The notes under the pieces are model-generated. The model ran no database searches and was not told the origin of the DNA. It saw only the letters and a program-made list of their open reading frames with translations. From Bacillus sp. es.036 (GTDB lineage Bacteria > Bacillota > Bacilli > Bacillales > Guptibacillaceae), in contig NZ_PDIZ01000001.1 in NCBI RefSeq assembly GCF_002563635.1, forward strand, positions 496,001 through 560,000: a stretch of 64,000 bases of DNA, given 5' to 3'. Positions 8,282-38,478 of this stretch are shown in pieces. Each line of letters opens with the position of its first letter. Position 1 is the first letter of the stretch. Position numbers and translations under genes: made by a program.

Positions 8282-8636
8282 GTACCAAATGGAAGGGTTC
8301 TGGTAAATAGGTTGTTCTACCTGTTCGTGAGACTGACGTACGGGGTATTTATACCTATACCCGGGTTTCGATTTCTTTTAACCATATTTTTGTAAAAATG
8401 GTAATAGTGTTGCTGAGGGGGTTTTTATAGCGTAATAGAGTGTATAAAGCCTTCGTTTAATAATGAAAGGGAGTTAGGAGTTAAATGGTTAGGGTTTTCG
8501 TTTAACGGGAAAATACGGAGTAAACTCTGTTAAAGAATGTTCAAACTTTTGCCATAACAAAAACCACATTGGCGCTGTTATAATTAGGATAGAAGTCATG
8601 AATCAGTTCACCTAGAAAAGGAAAGAAGGAAGAATG
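8282..8636. other. intergenic region between the YwqH-like gene and the next gene
   Basis: About 350 bases without a convincing gene. It contains the inverted repeat GGGTAT-N8-ATACCC (8343-8362), which could be an operator for the divergent ywqH promoter, and a TATAAT at about 8577-8582 about 55 nt before the 8637 gene without a convincing -35 box. Confidence 0.4.
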
Positions 8637-8903
8637 ATGAGCACAGAATCTGAATCTAAACTATTGTTTTCATTGAGCATTGTGCAGTTTATCCTATCTG
8701 CGTTAATACTTTTACTTCCGATTATGTATCTGATTACTCCTGAAGAGGAGAATTTACTATTATACGGTATTATGGGATTTGGCGTCATTAATCTACTTGC
8801 TGGTATTTCGAACAGAATCAAAGGGCAGCAGCGTTCTGGTATGTTTTATTCGATTGCGGGCGTTGTGCTGTTTGCGATTGGTGTTAGTTTGCTATTGTTT
8901 TAA
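8637..8903 (+). CDS. small three-helix membrane protein
   Basis: An 88-aa protein with hydrophobic stretches near residues 9-30, 42-58 and 68-87 and a basic turn NRIKGQQRSG before the last helix. ATG 8637 is 7 nt from AAGGAAAGAAGG; an ATG three bases earlier is also possible. No known family is recognised. A terminator shared with the converging lipoprotein gene follows. Confidence 0.65.
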   Translation: MSTESESKLLFSLSIVQFILSALILLLPIMYLITPEEENLLLYGIMGFGVINLLAGISNRIKGQQRSGMFYSIAGVVLFAIGVSLLLF

Positions 8904-8922
8904 TTTAATGGATTCCTATCAT

Positions 8923-8960
8923 AGACAGACCTATTCTCATCAGAGAGTAGGTCTGTCTTT
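8923..8960. terminator. bidirectional terminator
   Basis: The stem AGACAGACCTA/TAGGTCTGTCT lies between two converging genes and is followed by a short T run. Confidence 0.8.
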
Positions 8961-8969
8961 GCGTTTCGT

Positions 8970-9911
8970 TTATATTTCCTCACTTAGCGTATAATTCACT
9001 CGTGCCATCATGTTGAGCGTTTCTTTTCTCACTTCAAGGTAGAGTTGCTCAAACTCCGCGCGATTTGTTTCCGGGTTTTCAAATTGTCCGAGCTGGCCAC
9101 ACATTGCTTGCACAGCTTGCATGCTTTCAAAAAGCTGAAGGTCCATTGCCGTTTGAGGGGCGGGAGGGAGGAGCGTTGGTGAACCAAGACTCTCTAACTC
9201 TTCTAAAAGGATTGGGAGTGCTTCATGATCGTAAGCCTGAGTCTGTACAATATAATCGAGATCACCAAGTGTTGGGGCGATAAGATACGTCATCTTAGTA
9301 ATGCCTCTTTCTAAATTTGTCGCTTCTTCATAAGTGCGGTAAGTTAATTCTTGCCCTTGTAATTGGGTTGGCGTAGCACTAAGAATCAATTGGTACGCTT
9401 CTTCAATCTGCTTTTGATCCGTAAGCTCGTAAGCTTCCTCTTCAAGGATTCCAATGAAAGCATCCCCATAATTTGTAATGTTGCGCATGTTTTCGTTTTC
9501 TCCGCTTACAATGGTGCGAATTGGTTTCTCATCTAAAGGGAAATAAATGCGGCCATCCTCATCCATGTATTCTTCGACAATTTCTTTTTGAGTATGTTCA
9601 TAAGCGATATTTCCGTCTTCTCCGTACGGTGTTTCAATCGAGATGGTAGGAATTCGTAGGAACTTCTTTTCAGTATCCGTTAGGCTATTAGTTGATGAAG
9701 GTGAATCTGGGGTGGGCGTAGCTGAATTAGTTGTGGTAGTATCCTTTTTGTTTTTCTTAGCTGAGGACGATTCTTCTGATGTGTTGGTATTGCTAGCCGC
9801 TGTTTCTTCAGTAGTAGCGGCTTCTGCTTCTTCATTTTGAGTCGCATTTTGGTTGTTATTACAGGCAGCTAATAATCCACAGGCAAGTAGGATAAGTAGG
9901 TACTTTTTCAT
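8970..9911 (-). CDS. lipoprotein of unknown function
   Basis: This 313-aa protein has a lipoprotein signal peptide (MKKYLLILLACGLLAAC, cleavage before Cys17), then a low-complexity Asn/Glu/Ser/Thr/Lys linker to about residue 75 that would span the cell wall, then a folded domain of about 230 residues beginning LTDTEKKFLRIPTISIETPYG. I do not recognise the domain. It is monocistronic, with a terminator downstream and no coupled gene. Confidence 0.75.
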   Translation of the reverse strand: MKKYLLILLACGLLAACNNNQNATQNEEAEAATTEETAASNTNTSEESSSAKKNKKDTTTTNSATPTPDSPSSTNSLTDTEKKFLRIPTISIETPYGEDGNIAYEHTQKEIVEEYMDEDGRIYFPLDEKPIRTIVSGENENMRNITNYGDAFIGILEEEAYELTDQKQIEEAYQLILSATPTQLQGQELTYRTYEEATNLERGITKMTYLIAPTLGDLDYIVQTQAYDHEALPILLEELESLGSPTLLPPAPQTAMDLQLFESMQAVQAMCGQLGQFENPETNRAEFEQLYLEVRKETLNMMARVNYTLSEEI

Positions 9912-27902: not shown

Positions 27903-28030
27903 GGTACGTTAAAAGAGTAAAGAAGTGATTGAGGATTAGGTGATAATTTGAAATAATTGAGAGTAGAGCAGGTTACATAGACGAAGAAGCGTAAGGAAGA
28001 CGTAATAAGCTCAGAAGATTGGAGGGTTTT

Positions 28031-28501
28031 ATGAACATTCGACATGTAAAGCAGTCAGACTACTATGTCATTGTGCCACAAATTAATGAATGGTGGGATG
28101 GTAGACAGATGGCAGACAAGCTACCTAAATTGTTTTTTGATCACTTTACAAATACGAGTTTTGTGGCAGAACAGGACGGAGAAATTATTGGCTTTCTGAT
28201 AGGTTTTCTTTCTCAATCGCATCTACAAGAAGGCTATATCCATTTTGTTGGTGTACACCCAATTCATCGAGATAGCCATATTGGACGCCAACTCTATGAG
28301 TCTTTCTTTCAAACGATGAAAATGTATGGTCGTAATTTGGTGAGGTGCGTTACCTCTCCAGTAAATAAGAATTCAATTGCATACCACATTCGAATGGGAT
28401 TTGAAATTGAAGGTGGTAATCGTGTCGTAAATGGAATTGCGGTGCACTCAAATTACGACGGACCTGGTGAAGAGCGGGTTGTGTTTGTGAAGCGCATATA
28501 A
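28031..28501 (+). CDS. GNAT-family N-acetyltransferase
   Basis: From ATG 28031 behind GGAGGG, a 156-aa acetyltransferase (MNIRHVKQSDYYVIVPQINE) with the GNAT core IHFVGVHPIHRDSHIGRQLY and a final VNKNSIAYHIRMGFEIEGG. The pyrophosphate loop (RDSHIGRQL) is slightly atypical in its first glycine position. Substrate unknown. Confidence 0.85.
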   Translation: MNIRHVKQSDYYVIVPQINEWWDGRQMADKLPKLFFDHFTNTSFVAEQDGEIIGFLIGFLSQSHLQEGYIHFVGVHPIHRDSHIGRQLYESFFQTMKMYGRNLVRCVTSPVNKNSIAYHIRMGFEIEGGNRVVNGIAVHSNYDGPGEERVVFVKRI

Positions 28502-28513
28502 ATGTCCACGGGA

Positions 28514-28537
28514 GGGGTAAGGCTCGAGCCTTACCCC
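28514..28537. repeat. GTCAGG palindrome, copy 10 (diverged)
   Basis: The perfect palindrome GGGGTAAGGCTCGAGCCTTA plus CCCC keeps the family layout but with TAAGGC for TCAGGT. It follows the acetyltransferase gene. Confidence 0.75.
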
Positions 28538-28618
28538 CTGCTTAGCAGCAGGAATCCCCAATCCCCTGCCGAACTATATTTCTTGAGAAAACACACATAA
28601 TCAAAGGAGCGGTGACCA

Positions 28619-29383
28619 ATGTCATTTATGAAGAAAATGATGGCGCGTGTAGGTGTTGGAAGTTCAGAAGTTGATACGATCTTGAATCGGAATGTGCTTG
28701 TTCCAGGTGAAACGGTCGATGGTGTGATTAAAATAAGAGCAGGCAGTGTCGAACAAACGATTGAAAAGATCGATCTTTCTCTTCACACAACTTACGTGCA
28801 AAAGAAAGATGACAGCAAGGTAACAAAATCGGTTCAGATTGCGCAGCACACGGTAGCGAATCAGTTTACGCTTCAACCAAATGATAAGAGAGAATTCCCA
28901 TTCGCGTTTATACTGCCACTTGATGCCCCGATCAGTAAAGGGAAGAGTAACGTTTGGCTTCAAACTGGACTCGATATTAAAAATGCCGTGGATCCGCAAG
29001 ATAAGGATATGATTCAGGTTGCTCCTCATCCGTATATCAATGCTTTCCTTCAAGCAGTCGATGGACTTGGTTTTAAGCTTCGAGAGGTTGAAAATGAAGA
29101 AGCTCACGGTTTTGGCCGACTGCCGTTTATTCAGGAATTTGAGTTCCACGCCACACACGGTGCGTTTCGCAGTCGCCTTGATGAGCTAGAAGCCGTGTTC
29201 CAGCCGGTTTCAAAAGACAACATTCGCGTGATCCTTGAGATCGATCGAAAAGCACGAGGCTTTTCGGGGTTCTTATCTGAAATGCTTGAAACGGATGAAT
29301 CTAAAGTGCAGTTTATGTTAACAACAGACGATGTTAACGAGATCCAGCGCCAGCTTACTGATGTTCTTAACCAATACGCATAA
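28619..29383 (+). CDS. spo0M: Spo0M-family sporulation-control protein
   Basis: A 254-aa arrestin-like protein (MSFMKKMMARVGVGSSEVDT) with the family strands VLVPGETVDGVIKIRAGS and VWLQTGLDIKNAVDPQDKD. Spo0M is a cytosolic regulator of sporulation and cell division in B. subtilis. AAAGGAG lies at good distance before ATG, and a terminator follows. The length matches the family. Confidence 0.93.
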   Translation: MSFMKKMMARVGVGSSEVDTILNRNVLVPGETVDGVIKIRAGSVEQTIEKIDLSLHTTYVQKKDDSKVTKSVQIAQHTVANQFTLQPNDKREFPFAFILPLDAPISKGKSNVWLQTGLDIKNAVDPQDKDMIQVAPHPYINAFLQAVDGLGFKLREVENEEAHGFGRLPFIQEFEFHATHGAFRSRLDELEAVFQPVSKDNIRVILEIDRKARGFSGFLSEMLETDESKVQFMLTTDDVNEIQRQLTDVLNQYA

Positions 29384-29413
29384 AAAGTTAACCGCACGCT
29401 CGAGCATAGCTGA

Positions 29414-29450
29414 TAAAAACGCACTTATTTAGGTAAGTGCGTTTTATTTT
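29414..29450 (+). terminator. terminator
   Basis: The stem AAAACGCACTTA/TAAGTGCGTTTT is followed by ATTTT. Confidence 0.85.
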
Positions 29451-29544
29451 GAAACAAATCTCATTTTAATTCGTATGTATTCTTATAGATAGAATTTTCT
29501 GACCGCTTCATTCAAGCGAATAAATATGTACTGAGGTGACCAAT

Positions 29545-29616
29545 TTGGAAGAGGGATTTTTCTTATTGTTGATCGTCTTAACGACAGTCATTATTCTTCG
29601 CAAAAAGAAAAAGTGA
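29545..29616 (+). CDS. 23-aa membrane peptide
   Basis: TTG 29545 follows GAGGTGACC at good distance. The product (first 20 residues MEEGFFLLLIVLTTVIILRK, then KKK) is a single hydrophobic helix with an acidic N-terminus and a four-residue basic C-terminus, a typical small membrane protein. No known homologue is recalled. Confidence 0.5.
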   Translation: MEEGFFLLLIVLTTVIILRKKKK

Positions 29617-29731
29617 TTATTTCAACGCAAGCTTTCTCTTCTTACTTATCGCCTAGCGCTTCAGCAGGAATTTATTCCCTTTTATCGAAGAGATATGAGT
29701 AGTAGATCAATCCATGAAATGGGGGATGAGA

Positions 29732-29929
29732 ATGCTTGAAGCGAATTGTTTTTTTTGTAAAAAGAAATTCCGGGTAAAGCCATCTGATTCGCAATTTCGG
29801 AAATTAAAGCAGAATCCAAAGGCGAGCTATGTGTGTCAGTCATGCAACCAATCAATGCAAAGAGAAGCGCAGCGAAGCACTGGTCTTGATCCCGATCAAA
29901 TCGACCAGTATGATAAGTTTTTTCGCTAA
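29732..29929 (+). CDS. small zinc-finger protein (DUF2197/YlaI-like)
   Basis: From ATG 29732 (or 29726) about 65 aa: MLEANCFFCKKKFRVKPSDS, with two CxxC pairs (CFFC and CQSC) about 30 residues apart that should bind one zinc ion. The second half (MQREAQRSTGLDPDQIDQYD) is polar. It resembles YlaI-type DUF2197 proteins, but the match is loose. The lipoprotein gene follows after 16 nt. Confidence 0.65.
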   Translation: MLEANCFFCKKKFRVKPSDSQFRKLKQNPKASYVCQSCNQSMQREAQRSTGLDPDQIDQYDKFFR

Positions 29930-29945
29930 AAGGAGCTGAAAACAA

Positions 29946-30404
29946 ATGAAGAATTGGTTGGAAATGGTGCCGCTTCTTCTTGTCATATTAGTGGGATGTA
30001 GTGATAAAGAAGAGGCCCGGGCTAAGCAAGTTGTACATAAAGATCCCGACTTAAAAGTAAGTGACACATTTACATCAGGATCCTACAAAATGATCGGTGA
30101 TGAAGGGCGACTAGGCTTTATTTATGGTGAAGCGGCAACATTTATAGTAGGACAGCCAAACAAGTATATGTGGCATTTTTGGGGAACTGATGATGAACTA
30201 GATGGAAGATTTAAAGTGATCGGCACGAATCAGGATACAAATGAAGAAGTGGTCGTTTTTGAAACAAATGAATTAGCCGGTGCTCATAATGGAGCTGATG
30301 CTCATACCCCGTCTTCCATGCAGCTTCCTTCAAGTGGAACTTGGGAGCTCGATGCTTATGTCGGCGGTGATTTATTTGGAACGGTCGTTGTGGAGGTGGA
30401 GTAA
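29946..30404 (+). CDS. lipoprotein, DUF4871/YhfM-like
   Basis: A 152-aa lipoprotein with signal MKNWLEMVPLLLVILVGC and a beta-rich domain containing the segment PNKYMWHFWGTDDELDGRFK and an ending GGDLFGTVVVEVE. This resembles DUF4871 (YhfM-like) proteins. Function unknown; probably in an operon with the zinc-finger gene. Confidence 0.7.
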   Translation: MKNWLEMVPLLLVILVGCSDKEEARAKQVVHKDPDLKVSDTFTSGSYKMIGDEGRLGFIYGEAATFIVGQPNKYMWHFWGTDDELDGRFKVIGTNQDTNEEVVVFETNELAGAHNGADAHTPSSMQLPSSGTWELDAYVGGDLFGTVVVEVE

Positions 30405-30407
30405 GTC

Positions 30408-30554
30408 CATGCACCATATGGGCTACATGATTTGTTTGGATTGATCGTCCGTCCGAACAAGCTCTTGATTTCCCGTGATGTGTATGAAACGAAAGTGGCC
30501 CAGTGGTCAGTTCGGTGGCCGGAGCTTGAGGTCATCTCGTGGGATGAAAGGTGA
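30408..30554 (+). pseudogene. C-terminal remnant of a nucleotidyltransferase-family protein
   Basis: The frame, without its own start, reads HAPYGLHDLFGLIVRPNKLL, then SRDVYETKVAQWSVRWPELE and VISWDER-stop. This is the conserved C-terminus of a Bacillus nucleotidyltransferase-like family (APYGLxDLFxxxVRPN ... YxxKVxxWxxxWPxLxVIPW). The rest of the gene is missing, so it is a deletion relic. Confidence 0.6.
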
Positions 30555-30638
30555 CGAAATGAAAACCACTCCTCTTAAGGGTGTGGTTGTACATAAGTTT
30601 TGCGAGAATTAAAAGTTTAAAAGTAAGTGAGGTTAGGA

Positions 30639-30848
30639 ATGAAAGCCAAAACGTTTTTACACATACTCGGATGGGTCATTCTTGGATCGTGGCTCATCCA
30701 TTTTCTAGCGTTCTATTTTATTGATTCCGAAAGAAAGGTCTACAGTATCGAAAAAATAATAGAAGGCGTTGTGTTTATAGTTCTCGTAGTGCCTGTCTAT
30801 TTTAGCGGTGTTACGCTGTATTACAAATTTTTTGATACAGATGTATAG
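30639..30848 (+). CDS. small two-helix membrane protein
   Basis: From ATG 30639 behind GAGGTTAGG, a 69-aa protein (MKAKTFLHILGWVILGSWLI) with two helices joined by a charged loop DSERKVYSIEKIIEG. No family recognised. Confidence 0.6.
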   Translation: MKAKTFLHILGWVILGSWLIHFLAFYFIDSERKVYSIEKIIEGVVFIVLVVPVYFSGVTLYYKFFDTDV

Positions 30849-30968
30849 GAAGAAAAGGTTAGGTGATGAGAAGTAAGCTGGGCGCAGTGCCACTCATGTA
30901 TGAGAAAAAAGTCCTTCCATCAATAAATGAAGTGTCAGTACAATAGTCGAATTGGTGACCTTATTAGG

Positions 30969-31003
30969 AATTCCGGGAAGCGATCTTCACCGGAATTTTT
31001 TTA
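30969..31003 (+). terminator. terminator
   Basis: The stem AATTCCGG/CCGGAATT is followed by TTTTTT. Confidence 0.8.
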
Positions 31004-31070
31004 TATACAATAAGACCCCGGTGATTGACACGAAAGTTAAAGGAGAGTGTAAAGTATCGCACCTTTACGA

Positions 31071-31634
31071 TTGAAGATCTCGAATTTAGATTTTACAAAA
31101 GTATTGCCTCAAGCTTCGTTAAAAACACCCTTTGTGCTGGGGATTGACGGGCTAAGTCGTTCAGGTAAAACGACCTTCGTCACCAACCTGGAGCATTATT
31201 TCAAGTCGCTAGGATATCGTGCGGTTACGTTTCATATCGATGATTACATAGAACCGCGCAATAGACGCTATGATACGGGGCATGAAGAATGGTTTGAATA
31301 CTACTTTTTGCAGTGGGATATTGAAAAGCTAAAGGAAGAACTATTTGAAAAGGCGAAAGAGGGAGTAAAACCTGATCAAGGATCTTCTACCGGTGAAAGC
31401 CCTCTTTCAGATGTAGTGATCATTGAAGGTGTTTTCCTCCAACGAAAGGAATGGCGCGGAGCCTTTGATCGAATGCTTTATTTAGATTGTGCGAAAGAGG
31501 TGCGATTTCAACGAGAAAGTGAAGTAACACAGAAAAAGATAAAGAAATTTGAAGACCGTTACTGGAAGGCAGAGGAGTATTACTTGGAGAGTGTTCGACC
31601 GGGAGAAAAGGCTGATATTGTGGTTGAATCTTGA
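31071..31634 (+). CDS. uridine-kinase-like P-loop kinase
   Basis: A 187-aa P-loop protein with Walker A GIDGLSRSGKTTF (about residues 24-36), FHIDDYIEPRNRRYDTG (the DD/Y acceptor-site motif of the uridine/pantothenate kinase class) and a VVIIEGVFLQRKEW strand. It probably phosphorylates a small metabolite or nucleoside. The only start that fits is TTG 31071, about 23 nt after an AAAGGAGAG site, so the true start is uncertain. TTGACA at 31024-31029 may be its -35 box. Confidence 0.78.
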   Translation: MKISNLDFTKVLPQASLKTPFVLGIDGLSRSGKTTFVTNLEHYFKSLGYRAVTFHIDDYIEPRNRRYDTGHEEWFEYYFLQWDIEKLKEELFEKAKEGVKPDQGSSTGESPLSDVVIIEGVFLQRKEWRGAFDRMLYLDCAKEVRFQRESEVTQKKIKKFEDRYWKAEEYYLESVRPGEKADIVVES

Positions 31635-31688
31635 GTTTCTTTTGTTTAGGTATGTTTAGTAGCGTAGGTTATTGGAGGGTAGAATCGT

Positions 31689-32183
31689 ATGACGATCGCA
31701 TATGTTCAATGGGGTGCACAGAAAGTGAAGTTAAGCTGGAACGGCAAAACCGCTCCAGATGGAATTGTGACAAGCGCTCATGGATTCTGTTTCAATAGAA
31801 ATCAACTTCTTCTCGTAAATTTGAAGCAAAGAGGTTGGGACTTTCCGGGCGGGCATATTGAAGCAGGGGAATCACCTGAAGCTTGTTTGGCGCGTGAAGC
31901 AATGGAAGAAGGGTATGTGAAAGGCGTTAGTCAATTCATCGGTTCTTTAACGGTCGATCATAGCGAAAATCCGAACTGGAACGAACAGAGCGCTTATCCT
32001 AAAGTGGGGTATCAACTTTTCTATCGAATGGATATAAGAGAGGTGCTACCTTTTGAGGCTGAACACGAATCAATGGATCGCATGTTTGTCGATCCCTATC
32101 AAATAGGAGCCTCCTACAAGAGATGGAATGAGGTGTACCAGGCAATTTTAGAAGCTGCACTAAAATTGGAGGAGAAGAAGTGA
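31689..32183 (+). CDS. Nudix hydrolase
   Basis: A 164-aa protein with a complete Nudix box: GGHIEAGESPEACLAREAME followed by EGYV, matching Gx5Ex7REUxEExGU. Nudix enzymes hydrolyse nucleoside diphosphates linked to another group; the substrate cannot be read. Its stop overlaps the next lipoprotein start by 4 nt, so they are translationally coupled. Confidence 0.9.
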   Translation: MTIAYVQWGAQKVKLSWNGKTAPDGIVTSAHGFCFNRNQLLLVNLKQRGWDFPGGHIEAGESPEACLAREAMEEGYVKGVSQFIGSLTVDHSENPNWNEQSAYPKVGYQLFYRMDIREVLPFEAEHESMDRMFVDPYQIGASYKRWNEVYQAILEAALKLEEKK

Positions 32184-32797
32184 AGAAAAGATGGTGGCTC
32201 TCATTCATTCTGGCAACCGTTCTTCTTTCGAGCTGCTCAGCTAATGAAAACAAAGTAGCCGAAATAGAAGCAGCGCCTGAGTCTGAATATGCGAAAACAT
32301 TTGATGAGTTAGTGCTTGGTACCCTATTTGATTTTAAGCTTGAAGTACAAAATGCGGATCAAAGATGGGTGAAGCTTTGGGTTGAACGCTATCAAGATGG
32401 GAAGAAGGATGATCATTCCGTTGTGGATCTTATCTATGGTGAAAGTTTAGATGAGACGGATGAAGGTCATGTAGGATTCGGAATCATCAATTCAGAAACA
32501 GATGAACCATTGTACTTTCTATATGCACCAGATATAAAATTAAATACGCAAAAAAGCAGTAAGAAAGCTAATTTAGAAAGTTCGATGTCGACTTGGGAAT
32601 ATGCGTTTAAAGATGAAAAAGTATCGCTAGCGTTAGATGAAGAAAAAGTACTTGCGGTGTATCGGAGTACAACGTCAAACGAGATGAGGACGGTTGATAT
32701 GAGTGATCCGAATGATCTGGAAAAAATGATTCAGGAAGACAGCGAAGTGTTACTACTCAAAATCCTCATCACTGAAAATAAAGACGCTCTTTATTAA
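32180..32797 (+). CDS. lipoprotein of unknown function
   Basis: A 205-aa lipoprotein with signal MKKRWWLSFILATVLLSSC and an acidic domain of about 180 residues (FDELVLGTLFDFKLEVQNAD, VGFGIINSETDEPLYFLYAP). It is coupled to the Nudix gene. The domain is not recognised. The first copy of the composite repeat begins about 15 nt after its stop. Confidence 0.7.
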   Translation: MKKRWWLSFILATVLLSSCSANENKVAEIEAAPESEYAKTFDELVLGTLFDFKLEVQNADQRWVKLWVERYQDGKKDDHSVVDLIYGESLDETDEGHVGFGIINSETDEPLYFLYAPDIKLNTQKSSKKANLESSMSTWEYAFKDEKVSLALDEEKVLAVYRSTTSNEMRTVDMSDPNDLEKMIQEDSEVLLLKILITENKDALY

Positions 32798-32813
32798 GGA
32801 GCGGAGAGTGGTT

Positions 32814-32953
32814 TATTGGCCATAACGAAAAGCTGCTGGAAATCCGGCGGCTTTTTTAGTTGCCCCTCACGCTGAAGCAATAGAAGGCTGCCGTCGGTGG
32901 TGGAGGGACAGTTGTTTGTCAGGGGGGTCAGGTTCGAACCTGACCCCCCTGAC
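32814..32953 (+). repeat. composite repeat element, copy A
   Basis: The parts in order are one TATTGGCC unit (32814-32833), a terminator-like hairpin AAAAGCTGCTGG/CCGGCGGCTTTT (32828-32857), about 50 bases, the shared string GACAGTTGTTTGT (32908-32919), and a perfect 36-base palindrome (32918-32953, copy 11 of the GTCAGG family). The same parts in the same order and orientation occur at 35728-35950. Confidence 0.8.
32918..32953. repeat. GTCAGG palindrome, copy 11
   Basis: The longest perfect member, 36 bases, with half-site GTCAGGGGGGTCAGGTTC. Confidence 0.92.
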
Positions 32954-33006
32954 TTTTAATTTTCCAATTCATGGTTGCGCACTATGTCATAACCTGATAT
33001 ATTACA

Positions 33007-33026
33007 TTTAATGATATATCATTAAA
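33007..33026. promoter_or_regulatory. PadR operator
   Basis: A perfect 20-base palindrome TTTAATGATATATCATTAAA lies 24 nt before the padR start, where it would block the promoter or early transcription. Confidence 0.65.
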
Positions 33027-33049
33027 CGATATAAGTTTGGAGGAACCTC

Positions 33050-33379
33050 ATGCCAAGGAATGATTCTCTTGATGTAGGAGAGCTAACGGACACGTCTTAT
33101 TATATTCTTTTATCGCTCAAGGAGCCGAAACATGGCTATTTAATTATGAAGTCGATTGAAGAGTTAACAAATCACAGCGTTGTGATCGGACCGGCGTCCA
33201 TGTATACAACGATCAAAAAACTTCTTGCGGCCGGTTTGATTGAGCTCTTAGATAAAAGTGAAAAGAAAAAAGTGTATGTAACAACAGAAAAGGGTGTCGA
33301 GCTAGTAAGGAAAGAAATTGAACGGAAACGTATCATGATTCAACACGGGGAAGCGATACTTGCAAACAAGGGAGAGTGA
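33050..33379 (+). CDS. PadR-family transcriptional regulator
   Basis: A 109-aa PadR protein (MPRNDSLDVGELTDTSYYIL) with the winged helix EPKHGYLIMKSIEELTNHSV and the MYTTIKKLLAAGLIELL recognition region. ATG 33050 follows TTGGAGG. It is the first gene of the cassette padR-DUF2812-ABC ATPase-permease and probably represses it through the palindrome just upstream. Confidence 0.9.
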   Translation: MPRNDSLDVGELTDTSYYILLSLKEPKHGYLIMKSIEELTNHSVVIGPASMYTTIKKLLAAGLIELLDKSEKKKVYVTTEKGVELVRKEIERKRIMIQHGEAILANKGE

Positions 33380-33930
33380 GAGGTGTGGGGAAGACAAAAT
33401 ACGTAATGAGCAGTGGATTAGCTTTTTCAGAAGAGAAAGAGATGGCAAAGCTGAGCGAATACGCGCGAAAAGGATGGCTATTTGAGAAATTTGCGTTTCT
33501 AGGATTTGTATTACGACAAGGAGAACCACAGAATCTTATCTATTCTCTAGACTATCAAAAAGAACCTGATGAGGAGTATTTTAGTTATTTTGAAGAAGCT
33601 GGGTGGACGATTGTTTGTTCGGTTGGAAATGAAATGCACGTATTTTCAGCAGCTCAAGGAACAACTCCAATCTATTCTGATAAAGAATCAACGAAAGAGA
33701 AATATGAGCGGGAACGTCAGTCGATGAAAAAAGTCGCCAGCCCAGCGCTTTTGCTTACGCTTGTTTTCATAGTGTTGTCAATGAGTAGTCAGAATGGTTA
33801 TCTTCCATCAATTGTTGGCCAAATCAGTGAATATAGTAGTTACGCTACTTTTATTGTGCTGATATTTACTGGAATGCCGTACCTTGCTTATTGCTATAAA
33901 TTGAAGAAATTAGAGAAACAAGATTTCTAA
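33376..33930 (+). CDS. DUF2812 membrane protein
   Basis: A 184-aa protein that overlaps padR by 4 nt at GTG 33376 (GTG 33385 is an alternative). The N-terminal soluble DUF2812 domain (EYARKGWLFEKFAFLGFVLR, YFSYFEEAGWTIVCSVGNEM) is followed by two membrane helices. PadR-DUF2812 pairs are frequent in Firmicutes and regulate membrane or transport functions; the molecular role is not known. Confidence 0.85.
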   Translation: MRGVGKTKYVMSSGLAFSEEKEMAKLSEYARKGWLFEKFAFLGFVLRQGEPQNLIYSLDYQKEPDEEYFSYFEEAGWTIVCSVGNEMHVFSAAQGTTPIYSDKESTKEKYERERQSMKKVASPALLLTLVFIVLSMSSQNGYLPSIVGQISEYSSYATFIVLIFTGMPYLAYCYKLKKLEKQDF

Positions 33931-33950
33931 TCAAGGAGAGGAGTCTGCTG

Positions 33951-34739
33951 ATGGCTAGCGTGCTAGAGGTAAAAGGACTTGGTAAGCGATTTAAACATGG
34001 AGCGATCATTGAAAATCTTTCCTTTCACGTTAATAAAGGCGAGATTATGGCGATTCTTGGACCAAATGGAGCTGGAAAGTCTACGACAATTCGTTCAATT
34101 TTGGGGATTTTATATCCCGATGAAGGAGAGATCTTTTATCAAGGAGAGTCTATGAAAAAAATCCCTCCGGAGCGGATTGGGTACTTACCTGAAGAGCGTG
34201 GTCTTTATAAAAATGTAAAAGTAATCGATATCCTCCTCTATTTTGCAGATTTAAAAGATTATCCTATTCAAAAAGCCAAGCAACGTGCTAAGTTTTATTT
34301 AAAGAGGTTTGGTCTAGAAGATAAAGAGAAAGTGAAAATGGACGAATTATCGAAAGGGATGGGGCAAAAAATTCAGTTCATCGCTTCCATCATTCATGAG
34401 CCAGAAATCCTCATTCTTGATGAACCCTTTTCAGGTCTGGACCCTGTTAGTCAGGAACTTTTCCAAAAAGAAATCAAAGAATTGGCGGAACAAGGTACTG
34501 CGATTTTACTTTCCTCTCATCAAATGAATCTTATCGAAACGTTAGGAGATCGGCTCTTATTTATACATAAAGGAAAAGAGGTAGTGACGGGCTCAATCCA
34601 TGATGTGAAAGCACAGTTTTCGAATTACAAATGCACGATTCGTGGAGAAAATACCCGCTCCCTACTAGAAACGATTCCTATGGTTGACCGAATTGAGCAA
34701 AAAACAAGACGTCGATTCTATTCCTTGAAAAGGAGGTAG
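33951..34739 (+). CDS. NatA-type ABC transporter ATP-binding protein, frameshifted near the end
   Basis: The ATPase of an ABC-2 exporter: Walker A LGPNGAGKSTT, signature LSKGMGQK, Walker B ILILDEPFSGLDP, H-loop SSHQ. The frame stops at 34739 in FYSLKRR. One additional A in the run near 34729-34732 would continue KKEVELTRWLSTLPKKLDIQ and LRLDRISLHDIFVSIASGRK and end at 34870, 11 nt past the permease start, the usual overlap. So the complete gene is probably 33951-34870 with one missing base. The catalytic domain is intact; only the C-terminal about 45 residues are out of frame. Confidence 0.85.
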   Translation: MASVLEVKGLGKRFKHGAIIENLSFHVNKGEIMAILGPNGAGKSTTIRSILGILYPDEGEIFYQGESMKKIPPERIGYLPEERGLYKNVKVIDILLYFADLKDYPIQKAKQRAKFYLKRFGLEDKEKVKMDELSKGMGQKIQFIASIIHEPEILILDEPFSGLDPVSQELFQKEIKELAEQGTAILLSSHQMNLIETLGDRLLFIHKGKEVVTGSIHDVKAQFSNYKCTIRGENTRSLLETIPMVDRIEQKTRRRFYSLKRR

Positions 34740-34859
34740 AGCTGACCAGGTGGTTGAGCACTCTTCCGAAAAAACTAGACATTCAAGAGCTTCGCCTTGA
34801 TCGAATCTCTCTACATGACATTTTTGTTAGCATCGCAAGTGGCAGAAAGGACCTGAGCT

Positions 34860-35708
34860 ATGAAAAATAGTTTGAAAGTTGCGAAATGGGAGTTTAAGCG
34901 GAACATGACCAATAAGTCTTTTTTGATCTCCGTTTTTATGACACCTATCATTATCATATTGTTTAGTTTTTTACCTTCGATGATATCAGGGGGATCGACC
35001 TCCAGTGGGATGGCTTCATTGTTGAACGCCCGTTTGCTGCCCGGAATTGTTTCCGGTAGTATTTTTCTCTCCGTTCTATTAACAGGCATGCTGATTTTTC
35101 AGAGTGCTTCTCAAGAGAAGAAAGAGAAAGTGGCTGAAATTATTTTATCGTCAATGGAACCATACGAATTAATGCAAGGAAAAATCATAGGCTATTTTTT
35201 GCTTGGAGTGTCACAGGTGTTCATTTGGCTGTTCTGTGCTCTTCCATTCTTAGCGTGGAAATTAGGACTGGATATCCTGAAATACTTGATTTTGCCAAAA
35301 ACGATCGTATTGATTTTCATTGCACTGCTTGGTTACTTTTTATTTGCAGCGTTACTCGTTGGTCTAGGAGCAACAGTTGAAGATGTAACCTCATCAAGTA
35401 ATTTTCAAGGAACGATTATGATGTTGCCTTTCTCCTTTTCGCTTTTCATTCTTCCTGTATTAGAAGAGCCGAATGGAATGGCCGCAACGATTGGTTCTTA
35501 TATTCCATTTACGGCAACTGGAACATTGATTTTCCGTCTTTCTCTACTGGAAGTATGGCCATGGGAACAGATTATCGGGTCAATTTGTCTCTTACTTCTA
35601 ACTTCCTGGATATGCATGAAGGTGGCAGGTAAAATCTTTAAAGTTGGCATCTTAATGTATGGAAAGAATGCTAGCCCTCGTGAGATTTGGAAGTGGATGA
35701 GGGCTTAA
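34860..35708 (+). CDS. ABC-2 type permease (NatB-like, short form)
   Basis: A 282-aa permease (MKNSLKVAKWEFKRNMTNKS) with six helices and the ABC-2 motif EKKEKVAEIILSSMEPYELM. Compared with Na+-exporting NatB (about 386 aa) it has a short extracellular loop after helix 1. It works with the ATPase upstream, overlapping its restored frame by 11 nt. The exported substrate is unknown. Confidence 0.87.
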   Translation: MKNSLKVAKWEFKRNMTNKSFLISVFMTPIIIILFSFLPSMISGGSTSSGMASLLNARLLPGIVSGSIFLSVLLTGMLIFQSASQEKKEKVAEIILSSMEPYELMQGKIIGYFLLGVSQVFIWLFCALPFLAWKLGLDILKYLILPKTIVLIFIALLGYFLFAALLVGLGATVEDVTSSSNFQGTIMMLPFSFSLFILPVLEEPNGMAATIGSYIPFTATGTLIFRLSLLEVWPWEQIIGSICLLLLTSWICMKVAGKIFKVGILMYGKNASPREIWKWMRA

Positions 35709-35727
35709 GGGATAGGTGGCAGTGGTT

Positions 35728-35827
35728 TATTGGCCGAATTCTCAGGATATTGGCCAAAACTGAAATATATTGGCCGAAATTAGAATATATTGGCTAAATC
35801 TTATTTTTATTGGCCAAAACGAAAAGC
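35728..35827 (+). repeat. five tandem 20-bp TATTGGCC units
   Basis: TATTGGC(C/T) begins at 35728, 35748, 35768, 35788 and 35808, exactly 20 bp apart. The remaining 12 bases of each unit vary but stay AT-rich. 20 bp is close to two helical turns, so the conserved parts lie on one face of the DNA. The other copy of the element (32814) has just one unit. Confidence 0.85.
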
Positions 35828-35950
35828 TGCCGGAAATCCAGCAGCTTTTTTTAGTTCCATCTCAAGCTTAAGCGAAATAAATCCGCTGTCCGTCGTAGAG
35901 AGACAGTTGTTTGTAAGGGGGGTCAGGTACGTACCTGACCCCCCCCTTAC
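35822..35950 (+). repeat. composite repeat element, copy B (hairpin and palindrome part)
   Basis: After the TATTGGCC units come the hairpin AAAAGCTGCCGG/CCAGCAGCTTTT with a T run (35822-35852), about 50 bases, GACAGTTGTTTGT and the GTCAGG palindrome. It matches copy A part for part. The hairpin probably ends transcription of the ABC operon. Confidence 0.8.
35913..35950. repeat. GTCAGG palindrome, copy 12
   Basis: Arms GTAAGGGGGGTCAGG/CCTGACC...CCTTAC with unequal C/G runs. It contains the stop codon of mprF (35947-35949). Confidence 0.88.
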
Positions 35951-38478
35951 CCTTTACTCCCCTTCTTACTTATCAATCGCGAGACCTGCGCCATTGTAAA
36001 GGGGAGGGAGGATTTTTTGCGATAGGCGAGGTATTTGCGTTCCCAGGTGTGAGCGTATTTTCCTTTGAACTTCCGCAGGCCCTGGAAGTGATAGAAGATA
36101 TGGCCATGTAGGAAGATTTGGGCAGCGATGCGTTCACTTAGGAAAGAAAATTTGGATTGACCCACATTTGCTAGAGGAGCCATGCCAAGGTTAAAAGACT
36201 GATAGCCTTCTGCTTTGGCCCATTCAAATAATGAAAGAAACATAACGTCCATTGTGCCAGACGGGGCGCTGTGTAGGAAGCGCATTAAATCGATAGAAAT
36301 GGTTTTATTTCCATCGTAGACTGGCATAAGACTAGTAAAGGCGATAATCGTATCATTTTCTTTCATGATGGCGATCTCCGACTTATTCAAATAATCAACG
36401 TCAAAGAATCCTAACGAAAACCCCTTTTCATTCCTTCCTTGTAGCCATTCATCCGATACATTTTTCAGTTTATTCAATAGCGCTTCACTATGAGGAGGTG
36501 TTGCGATTTCAAACAGATAATTTTCACGTTCAAATTTGTTTTTAACTGCGCGTAGCGCCTTCATTTTCTTACCGGATAAGGTGAATTGCTCCAATTCAAC
36601 GAATGCTTCTTCACCAAGTTTAAAAAAGCCAAACCCTTTTTCGTGTAAAAGTGGAAGCAAATCATTGCTCACTTCATAGAAGACTGGCGTAAAGCCTTGA
36701 ATATCTGCAAGCTGTTGAAACTCATCAATTGCATTTGAAAAGTCGTTTTCCTCTCCAACCGGATCACCAAGGACGACAAGTTTATCAGACGATTGTTGAA
36801 AGCTTAGGAATACCGTACGCTTGGCATTCCAGAACAGCGATTTATCGTGTAAGAATACTAAATGCGTTAATGTATTGCCGCGATAGGTTGTTAAGTGCTC
36901 GAGAATGTGAGGATCTTGCTTAGGCTCGGAATTCTGGATTGGATTTTTAGGTTTAATCACGGCGTTTCCAATAAGGAAGACAAGTAGCGCAATCAACAAT
37001 CCAATTAATGCACTGTAAAACAACGTGTGGTAATCCGTAATCAGATAGGGCAACACTTGCGACGGAATCGCGTTCGTTGAAGACGGCAAGCTCATGTACC
37101 CAATTAAAACATACATCGACGTAATGAAAAGAATAACGAGTGCATCAATAATCGTTTTGCTCCATGTTAACACATAGCTTTCACGATAAAAGCGCGTTCT
37201 TGATAGATAGAGTATGAATGCCACAATTAATAGGAAAATGGCTTCCTCATAATCAATCCCTTTTGAAAATGTAAATGCAGCCGCGCAGAAAAGGACAACG
37301 ATCGTCAGGTAATAGGCTCGTTTCACTTTGTATTCAATGCCTCTGGATAATCCGAGTAGCGCAAAGCCTGCTCCGACAGAAAGCTGGTGTGAGAGATTAA
37401 CTAGAAACGGAATCGAGTGCATTTCCTCGAGAATTTTTAGTCGGTCAATGATTCCGGGTAAAGCAGCAGATAAGAGTAGGATTAATCCCGATACAAAGAC
37501 TAACAAAGTGATGAATACGTGGCTCAGTCTTTGTACGAGTGCGATCGGGAGGTTATCCCAGTTCGCATTCCACTTTTCCCAATAGTCTCTGACGAACAGA
37601 ATCATCGCTAGTAAAAATGGGAAGAAAAAGTAACCAACGCGAAATAAAATGAGCAGGAAAAGCACCTTTTCATTTTGTAAACCAATCAGCTGACTGCCCC
37701 AGATGAAAGTGAGATCAAATGAACCGAGACCTCCAGGAATCATACTAACAATGCCGACACATGCAGCGATCACAAAGAGTGGGAAAAGGTCATGAAATGA
37801 AATGCTTAAGTCAAGCATTGTTGCTAATAGCCAGATCGCAAGAAACGCAAAACTCCACTCCAGGAATGATACCGCGATAAGCTGAAGCCTCGTTTTCGTG
37901 CCAAAAGAGCGCGTCCGGTAGTTGTTCCACAAGAACGAAAAAATGAGAACAGGTAAATAAAGTCCAACGACGATCACAACCAAATAAAGCCAGGGAATTT
38001 CTTTGAGTAAGGGACTTTCTCTGTAAGTGATCATCTTGATTAGCGCAAGAAGAGATAGACCAGTTAAATAAAAGTAGGTCATGTTTCCAATGCTCTTTGA
38101 TAGTTCACTGTGATCGTCCTGCTCCGTTTGATAAAAATAGTTTCGAAGCATGCTGCTAACGATTCCACCAGATCCAATCAAATTTGAAACGGCATTAACG
38201 ATAAACGATTGCTTCAGAAGTTGTTTCATTGGAAATGTTTTTTGCAATGATTTCAAAATCAAAGAATCATATAAAAACATTGGGCTAACTGCCCCCATTG
38301 TAATGAGTAACACGAGAAAAAGTTTTCCTATATTAAATTGATTTACTTCATTTAATAGAAGACTTACATGAACGTCTGATAGAAATGACGTGATTTGAAT
38401 GGCAGAGAGTACAAAAAGAAAAGCTGGTAAGAGTAATTTTAAATAGTGAAATAAAATGGTGTGTAAAATTGGTTTCAT
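35947..38478 (-). CDS. mprF: MprF, phosphatidylglycerol lysyltransferase and flippase
   Basis: An 843-aa bifunctional membrane protein. The first roughly 510 residues contain about 14 helices (flippase part, with SMIPGGLGSFDLTFIWG typical of the family); the C-terminal roughly 330 residues are the cytosolic GNAT-like DUF2156 synthase (KMKALRAVKNKFERENYLFE, FNLGMAPLANVGQ). The enzyme adds lysine from lysyl-tRNA to phosphatidylglycerol and flips it outward, which protects against cationic antimicrobial peptides. The length matches the family. Confidence 0.93.
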   Translation of the reverse strand: MKPILHTILFHYLKLLLPAFLFVLSAIQITSFLSDVHVSLLLNEVNQFNIGKLFLVLLITMGAVSPMFLYDSLILKSLQKTFPMKQLLKQSFIVNAVSNLIGSGGIVSSMLRNYFYQTEQDDHSELSKSIGNMTYFYLTGLSLLALIKMITYRESPLLKEIPWLYLVVIVVGLYLPVLIFSFLWNNYRTRSFGTKTRLQLIAVSFLEWSFAFLAIWLLATMLDLSISFHDLFPLFVIAACVGIVSMIPGGLGSFDLTFIWGSQLIGLQNEKVLFLLILFRVGYFFFPFLLAMILFVRDYWEKWNANWDNLPIALVQRLSHVFITLLVFVSGLILLLSAALPGIIDRLKILEEMHSIPFLVNLSHQLSVGAGFALLGLSRGIEYKVKRAYYLTIVVLFCAAAFTFSKGIDYEEAIFLLIVAFILYLSRTRFYRESYVLTWSKTIIDALVILFITSMYVLIGYMSLPSSTNAIPSQVLPYLITDYHTLFYSALIGLLIALLVFLIGNAVIKPKNPIQNSEPKQDPHILEHLTTYRGNTLTHLVFLHDKSLFWNAKRTVFLSFQQSSDKLVVLGDPVGEENDFSNAIDEFQQLADIQGFTPVFYEVSNDLLPLLHEKGFGFFKLGEEAFVELEQFTLSGKKMKALRAVKNKFERENYLFEIATPPHSEALLNKLKNVSDEWLQGRNEKGFSLGFFDVDYLNKSEIAIMKENDTIIAFTSLMPVYDGNKTISIDLMRFLHSAPSGTMDVMFLSLFEWAKAEGYQSFNLGMAPLANVGQSKFSFLSERIAAQIFLHGHIFYHFQGLRKFKGKYAHTWERKYLAYRKKSSLPFTMAQVSRLISKKGSKG

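Follow-up and report, generated by a model that had tools for sequence, protein, structure and literature searches.

It is well established that direct repeats can recombine by homology, which deletes the intervening sequence and leaves one repeat copy behind, and integron gene cassettes, in which genes lie between short direct repeats at multiple sites, are present or absent as units. Here, we analyzed a 64,000-nucleotide window of Bacillus sp. es.036 (G000:C1:496001-560000, G000 being the window's genome), in which an ABC exporter operon of padR, DUF2812, ATPase and permease genes lies between two direct repeats, copy A and copy B, and compared it across a genus set of 14 genomes (G000-G013). 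We found that arrays of the repeat family to which A and B belong, where they lie in the same direction at operon borders, probably act as recombination seams for the loss, and sometimes the gain, of the genes between them.

STAR repeats of Staphylococcus are intergenic direct repeats of unknown function that combine a short conserved motif (14 bp, GC-rich) with locus-specific spacers of at least 40 bp; unit number shifts within a locus, abundance varies among related species, loci differ between species, and recombination between loci was judged unlikely (PMC3532100). Set beside that description, our arrays resemble STAR in kind, being intergenic direct repeats with variable unit number and uneven abundance among relatives, but differ in motif, in pitch, in number and in how well their positions are conserved: they are built of TATTGGC[CT]AAA at a 20-nt pitch with about 9 nt between units, mostly have five units, occupy loci shared between species and include hybrid arrays between loci. 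The GTCAGG palindrome in both copies is REP-like. As with repetitive extragenic palindromic (REP) sequences and REP-associated tyrosine transposases (RAYTs; PMC3733652), there are short palindromes in tens of copies and RAYT-like genes, one of which lies beside two palindromes. The features of the locus, by window position, are as follows.

32180..32797, + strand: left neighbour, a lipoprotein-like gene with no Pfam or NCBIfam match
32812..32953, + strand: copy A, whole, at the 3' end of the lipoprotein-like gene
32814..32821, + strand: copy A, sole surviving TATTGGCC unit (five units in G011, four in G013, one degenerate unit in G009)
32828..32855, + strand: copy A, GCTGCTGG...CCGGCGGC hairpin and T run, terminator-like by shape (no terminator scan)
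32856..32953, + strand: copy A, spacer, degenerate GTCC hairpin, GACAGTTGTTTGT and palindrome, nearest B-type alleles
32918-32953, + strand: copy A, GTCAGG palindrome of 36 nt, within 32856..32953
33050..33379, + strand: PadR-family regulator (PF03551)
33376..33930, + strand: DUF2812 protein (PF11193)
33951..34739, + strand: ABC ATPase (PF00005)
34860..35708, + strand: ABC-2 type permease (PF12698)
35728..35944, + strand: copy B, whole, between the permease gene and mprF
35728..35817, + strand: copy B, five TATTGGC[CT] units with a 20-nt period
35822..35849, + strand: copy B, GCTGCCGG...CCAGCAGC hairpin and T run
35887..35944, + strand: copy B, REP-like element including GTTGTTTGT
35887-35905, + strand: copy B, imperfect GTCC hairpin, part of the REP-like element
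35917-35944, + strand: copy B, GTCAGG palindrome, part of the REP-like element
35947..38478, - strand: right neighbour, an MprF-like gene (PF09924/PF03706)

The first-pass annotation had described A and B as direct copies of a composite repeat, built from the same parts in the same order and bracketing the cassette, and it had named the four cassette genes; the family matches agree with those names, and A and B indeed align as direct repeats. One segment spans 46 nt at 91% (32812-32857 / 35806-35851) and a second spans 98 nt at 81% (32852-32949 / 35847-35944), with a separation of about 2995 nt. When G000 was searched with 35720-35950, copy A was the best second match (138 nt, 83%, E value 7e-34), and that search of G000 found no third site carrying all composite parts; G000:C1:3407068 matches the array and hairpin as well as copy A does (127 nt, 83%). 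In the window, GACAGTTGTTTGT occurs at just two positions, 32907 and 35902, and the TATTGGCC unit is present once in copy A and five times at a 20-nt period in copy B. The claim of same parts in the same order holds for the window only, because the spacer-GACAGTTGTTTGT-palindrome part is missing from copy A in G009, G013 and G011. A REP-like element as in copy B stands at the same place in all nine genus genomes with an informative locus. The bracketing of the operon by direct repeats is therefore confirmed, while A and B are best described as three dispersed parts, an array, a terminator-like hairpin and a REP-like element, and not as one mobile element.

The array consists of TATTGGC[CT]AAA units with a 20-nt period, usually five in number. 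We counted units in 83 arrays from stretches of G000, G004, G005, G007, G008, G011 and G013, picked via two adjacent unit matches with weak chains dropped (including 2 of 18 G000 loci), a sample in which single-unit remnants escape detection and orthologous arrays are counted repeatedly: 61 had five units, 10 had three, and six, four and two units were found in 4 arrays each. The 60 arrays with an exact 20-nt pitch gave the consensus TATTGGC[CT]AAA followed by about 9 weakly conserved nt. Unit number varies within a locus, with orthologous arrays of 5, 4 and 3 units. G000 contains at least 19 array loci of two or more units (18 plus B). The exact two-unit pattern was found in 10 of the 15 genomes of a family-level sample, every one in this genus (control 0), and in 8 of the 299 genomes of an order-level sample, again exclusively in this genus. 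Array abundance divides the genus 6 versus 8: two-unit matches number 19-33 each in G000, G004, G007, G008, G011 and G013, and 0-3 each in G009, G002, G005, G003, G010, G001, G006 and G012, the poor group thus including the close relatives G009 and G002, plus G005. In the literature collection searched, no description of a TATTGGC[CT]AAA array was found, and none of the papers listed named Pseudalkalibacillus (the genus name was not searched alone).

Position was classified for 64 arrays, 19 of the 83 being omitted at stretch edges, with open reading frames called automatically. All but two lay outside reading frames of at least 110 aa (62/64); the array 3' end faced a gene end in 47, and just 3 lay between divergent genes. 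The hairpin with T run is common to A, B and some other arrays; of the classified arrays, 13/64 have a hairpin. A second array class carries AGAAT[CG]ATTCT instead of the hairpin (19/64, e.g. L122, L161-L164 and L168), and no array carries both (0/64); we take this array-end motif to resemble Fur-family boxes.

Across the genus, a full-length mprF orthologue was present in 12 of the 14 genomes; G001 and G012 had partial matches only (42%). Among the 12, four had a complete cassette between the same neighbours (G000, G009, G013 and G011, the only such genomes of the 14), one had a partial cassette, three had a single array, one had a remnant, and three (G006, G003 and G010) were uninformative, with mprF lacking an adjoining lipoprotein gene or cassette. 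Copy B has five units in G013 and G011 and is without array or hairpin in G009. In G007 and G005, one five-unit array and one hairpin lie between the lipoprotein gene and mprF, with zero cassette remains. G008 has the same single array-hairpin site, its hairpin interrupted by an insertion of about 1.3 kb (L108, about 8395-9700), which by appearance, and not by search, looks like an IS3-type element. In G002, a 31-nt stretch from the end of the permease gene and its flank, identical at 29 positions, survives ahead of a one-unit array, and a related ABC pair lies at another location (57% and 62%). G004 keeps padR and DUF2812 alone, with no array.

The idea of deletion by recombination, raised in the first-pass annotation, is supported by these sites and by hybrid arrays at two other places, described below: the single array-hairpin unit in G007 and G005 (and G008) is the product expected from recombination between A and B. 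As in direct-repeat deletion generally, one repeat with both outer flanks remains in G007, G005, G008 (hairpin split) and at a sugar-gene junction in G013; unlike the textbook case, the repeat here belongs to a family of non-coding arrays, and several blocks of genes are affected across several species. We propose that A and B, as members of the dispersed family placed in the same direction at the 3' ends of the lipoprotein gene and of the exporter operon, would recombine or undergo slipped mispairing over about 122 nt, being 3 kb apart and nearly identical in some species. Such an event would exchange sequence and at times delete the operon, leaving one array-hairpin with the left flank of A and the right flank of B, and like events between other array pairs would make the arrays seams for gain and loss.

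Loss or gain of the exporter was weighed by divergence. Pooled fourfold divergence of cassette versus flanks was 0.135 versus 0.147, 0.539 versus 0.528, 0.470 versus 0.520, 0.563 versus 0.516, 0.470 versus 0.522 and 0.359 versus 0.314 in the six carrier pairs, and trees of the cassette and of mprF+RND both split G000 and G009 from G013 and G011. Judged from such comparisons, the cassette at this place is inherited along with its neighbours. Because the cassette and its flanks have diverged to a similar degree and remnants persist in G002 and G004, an ancestral exporter cassette lost several times is the simplest account. G007 and G008 are non-sisters in either flank tree, and their losses are likely independent. 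We infer that the empty exporter sites are deletions, that the events were independent and that recombination was the mechanism. Two further suggestions of the first-pass annotation found no support here. Recent arrival of this cassette as a unit does not fit a divergence like that of the neighbours, syntenic carriers and two relatives with remnants, and no amplification was seen: each carrier has one orthologue, and remaining matches in carriers are at most 31%.

The structure could also be read in reverse, with the single-array site ancestral and the cassette inserted on several occasions, a circle made of cassette and array being one possible form. One crossover would yield an identical structure, the empty sites are clean, and an SDR-like gene in G011, described below, looks inserted, as it is absent from that place in G007, G013 and G009 and present at another array in G000. 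This reading would, however, require the same four genes to have entered one place at least twice, against a divergence close to that of the flanks and the remnants in G002 and G004. Plasmids gave just two permease matches, both distant (32.6% with 76% query coverage, and 41.1% with 20%); repeat B was found in neither plasmids nor phages (the repeat was searched in both, and the cassette was not searched in phages). We consider repeated insertion distinctly unlikely and retain ancestral presence followed by loss.

Copies A and B also appear to exchange sequence. Over the array and hairpin, A and B of the same genome differ at 2/122 sites in G011 and 6/102 in G013, while orthologous copies of G011 and G013 differ at 12/102 (A) and 16/122 (B); a Fisher test of A-B versus orthologue differences gave 0.0009 for G011 and 0.0007 pooled. 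The two copies of G011 agree at 98%, and the next best among 18 five-unit G011 arrays reach 85-87%; the window's copy B and the array at 3407 kb agree at 83%. Given this likeness, A and B belong to a subfamily. A B-type segment was probably copied into the window's copy A, since the post-hairpin part of copy A is most like B-type alleles (82/98 with G002, 79/98 with copy B of the window) and is absent from the other carriers.

A second region, at 405-418 kb of G000, was compared for gene order across seven genomes. All 28 of its arrays, in six genomes, point in the same direction, and none was detected in G005. We rejected a reading in which every relative retains the genes bracketed by array pairs at 405-418 kb, as G013 is without five of them. 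These five form a sugar cassette between arrays 407746 and 413881 in G000 (the names "sugar cassette" and "SDR-like" rest on sequence starts and not on a family search). The G013 junction is a decayed two-unit array that joins the second array's left flank to the first array's right flank, and the absence there is a loss because sister G011, plus G005, carry the genes. The short-chain dehydrogenase/reductase (SDR)-like gene of G011 lies between two direct arrays that are alike at 108/111 sites, and homology stops at the arrays. At that place, G007 has a single array with the outer flanks of both G011 arrays, and G013 has the same flank types; the gene is missing there in G007, G013 and G009, and in G000 it lies at a different array that shares the upstream flank. 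In contrast to the exporter, the SDR gene thus differs in place between G000 and G011. A four-gene block starting at 414248 is absent in G007, where a two-unit array with a different left flank is found.

Chance could account for these patterns if arrays and gene-content changes both happen to fall at operon borders and deletions ended in repeats by coincidence. The second region has arrays at many operon borders, the majority of array loci are unchanged, and G004 shows a gene change without arrays. On the other side, three of the five exporter losses end within one 122-nt repeat, and hybrid flank pairs occur at two further places. The first-pass annotation had held that bracketing would be coincidental if the element occurred at hundreds of unrelated loci and the cassette were stable and syntenic in all relatives; parts occur at some 20-30 loci, which goes weakly in that direction, and the cassette is syntenic but not stable. 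We regard coincidence as very unlikely.

Several results weigh against the view of arrays as seams for gene loss. Most arrays are quiet: among 92 arrays with both flanks, 58 arrays in 14 of 18 groups kept their flank pairs, and 31 arrays in 4 groups changed (an upper figure, because two of the four groups were partly merged by repeated flank sequence), with 3 single. A clean empty site could equally be one that was never occupied, so that loss is argued by parsimony, divergence and remnants alone. In the G011-G000 and G011-G009 pairs, padR and permease diverge by 0.35-0.41, below every flank gene (0.44-0.74), and the independence of the G007 and G008 losses hangs on mprF+RND nodes with supports of 61 and 70. 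As to exchange, the Fisher test takes sites as independent, the A-B comparison in G013 on its own is not significant (p 0.22), and neither the G005 nor the G007 array has an A/B-specific site by which a crossover could be placed. At the sugar junction of G013, the array has decayed to two poor units, and for the SDR gene, gain in G011 is plausibly as likely as loss because G007, G013 and G009 are all without it there.

The idea that species recently exchanged cassettes of the second region was tried and set aside, as the signal was suggestive only: fourfold divergence between G000 and G011 was 0.20-0.50 for cassette genes (f5-f9, f14, f10, f20 and f11) and 0.30 for the SDR gene, against 0.63-0.65 (f0-f1) and 0.44 (f2) for comparison genes. 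Separately, the G007 block f3-f4-f12 (L168, 12224-15172) has a fourfold divergence of 0.11-0.21 to G011 (L163) and 0.30-0.46 to its clade mate G000, as if exchanged between species, and its edge in G007 is an array.

We also considered a mobile composite element that has A and B as its ends. The direct repeats on either side of the cassette, the occurrence of the REP-like part at 31 sites and the RAYT-like genes in the genome would fit. The annotation's remark that neither copy carries a transposase extends to the interval, as none was found between A and B among window reading frames and family matches; moreover, the REP part of A is missing in three carriers, and all four carriers have the cassette at the same chromosomal place, unlike a mobile cassette or composite transposon. 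An element of this kind is extremely improbable.

The GTCAGG palindrome occurs at 31 sites in G000 (at most 3 mismatches; reversed-pattern control 1) and at 2 to 45 per genome in all 14 genus genomes (control 0). In G000, 11 palindromes cluster at 464-532 kb, 8 at 2997-3057 kb and 10 at 3258-3307 kb, with 2 elsewhere. Their centres vary by region, mainly TACGTA/TTCGAA near mprF and mainly CTCGAG at 3258-3307 kb; near mprF in G002 and G003, TACGTA centres predominate among the matches listed. By eye, a GTCC...GGA hairpin with TTGTTTGT or TTGTCTT precedes 9 of 14 displayed palindromes and, among the window's 10 palindromes, only those of A and B. G000 has six RAYT-like Y1_Tnp matches. One gene (G000:C1:3306041-3306752, L132) has palindromes 3306584 and 3306727 just upstream, and no palindrome of the list adjoins any of the four further matches at 3087-3238 kb. 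Two RAYT-like proteins scored 58.4 and 77.2 bits, under the NCBIfam cut-off of 80, and no constant GTAG or CGTC tag was seen at the palindromes on inspection by eye, both possible differences from REP/RAYT systems.

As for their own role, the arrays may be phased binding sites for a putative DNA-binding protein at transcription-unit borders, a guess that is possible though doubtful. Three other ideas were dropped. Intrinsic curvature as the cause of the 20-nt pitch gave a mean z of 0.19, above 2 in 2 of 60 arrays. For unit-to-unit coupling, only pairs 1-2 and 1-5 beat all 500 shuffles, and the result was not used as orthologues are not independent. A transcript-bound RNA element was not adopted because array direction relative to flanking genes is mixed genome-wide.

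A bolder version, which we think unlikely, would be a genus-specific cassette system in which five-unit arrays lying in the same direction at operon borders are recombination sites, perhaps aided by a protein bound to the phased units. Gene blocks would be excised, enter other arrays and move from one species to another, and G009, G002 and G005 would have lost the protein and then the arrays. The likeness to integrons is in outline only, since here long homologous arrays flank whole operons. In these natural variants, gene blocks are lost, and may also be gained, at seams formed by a single family of non-coding repeats, which has an unusually fixed design (mostly five units, 20 nt), is confined in our sample to one genus and is nearly absent from some close relatives. 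A gene-content comparison could point to an array-reading protein and help to tell chance homology from a dedicated system.

Rfam gave no match near a gathering score across 28000-37500, and a literature search found no paper pairing DUF2812 with PadR. Within window positions 33951-34868, the ATPase stops at 262 aa, and it has 306 aa in G009, G013 and G011; the shorter form is either decay or an assembly error. An inverted repeat at 33000-33033, ahead of padR and recognisable in G009, G013, G011 and G004, is a candidate PadR operator.

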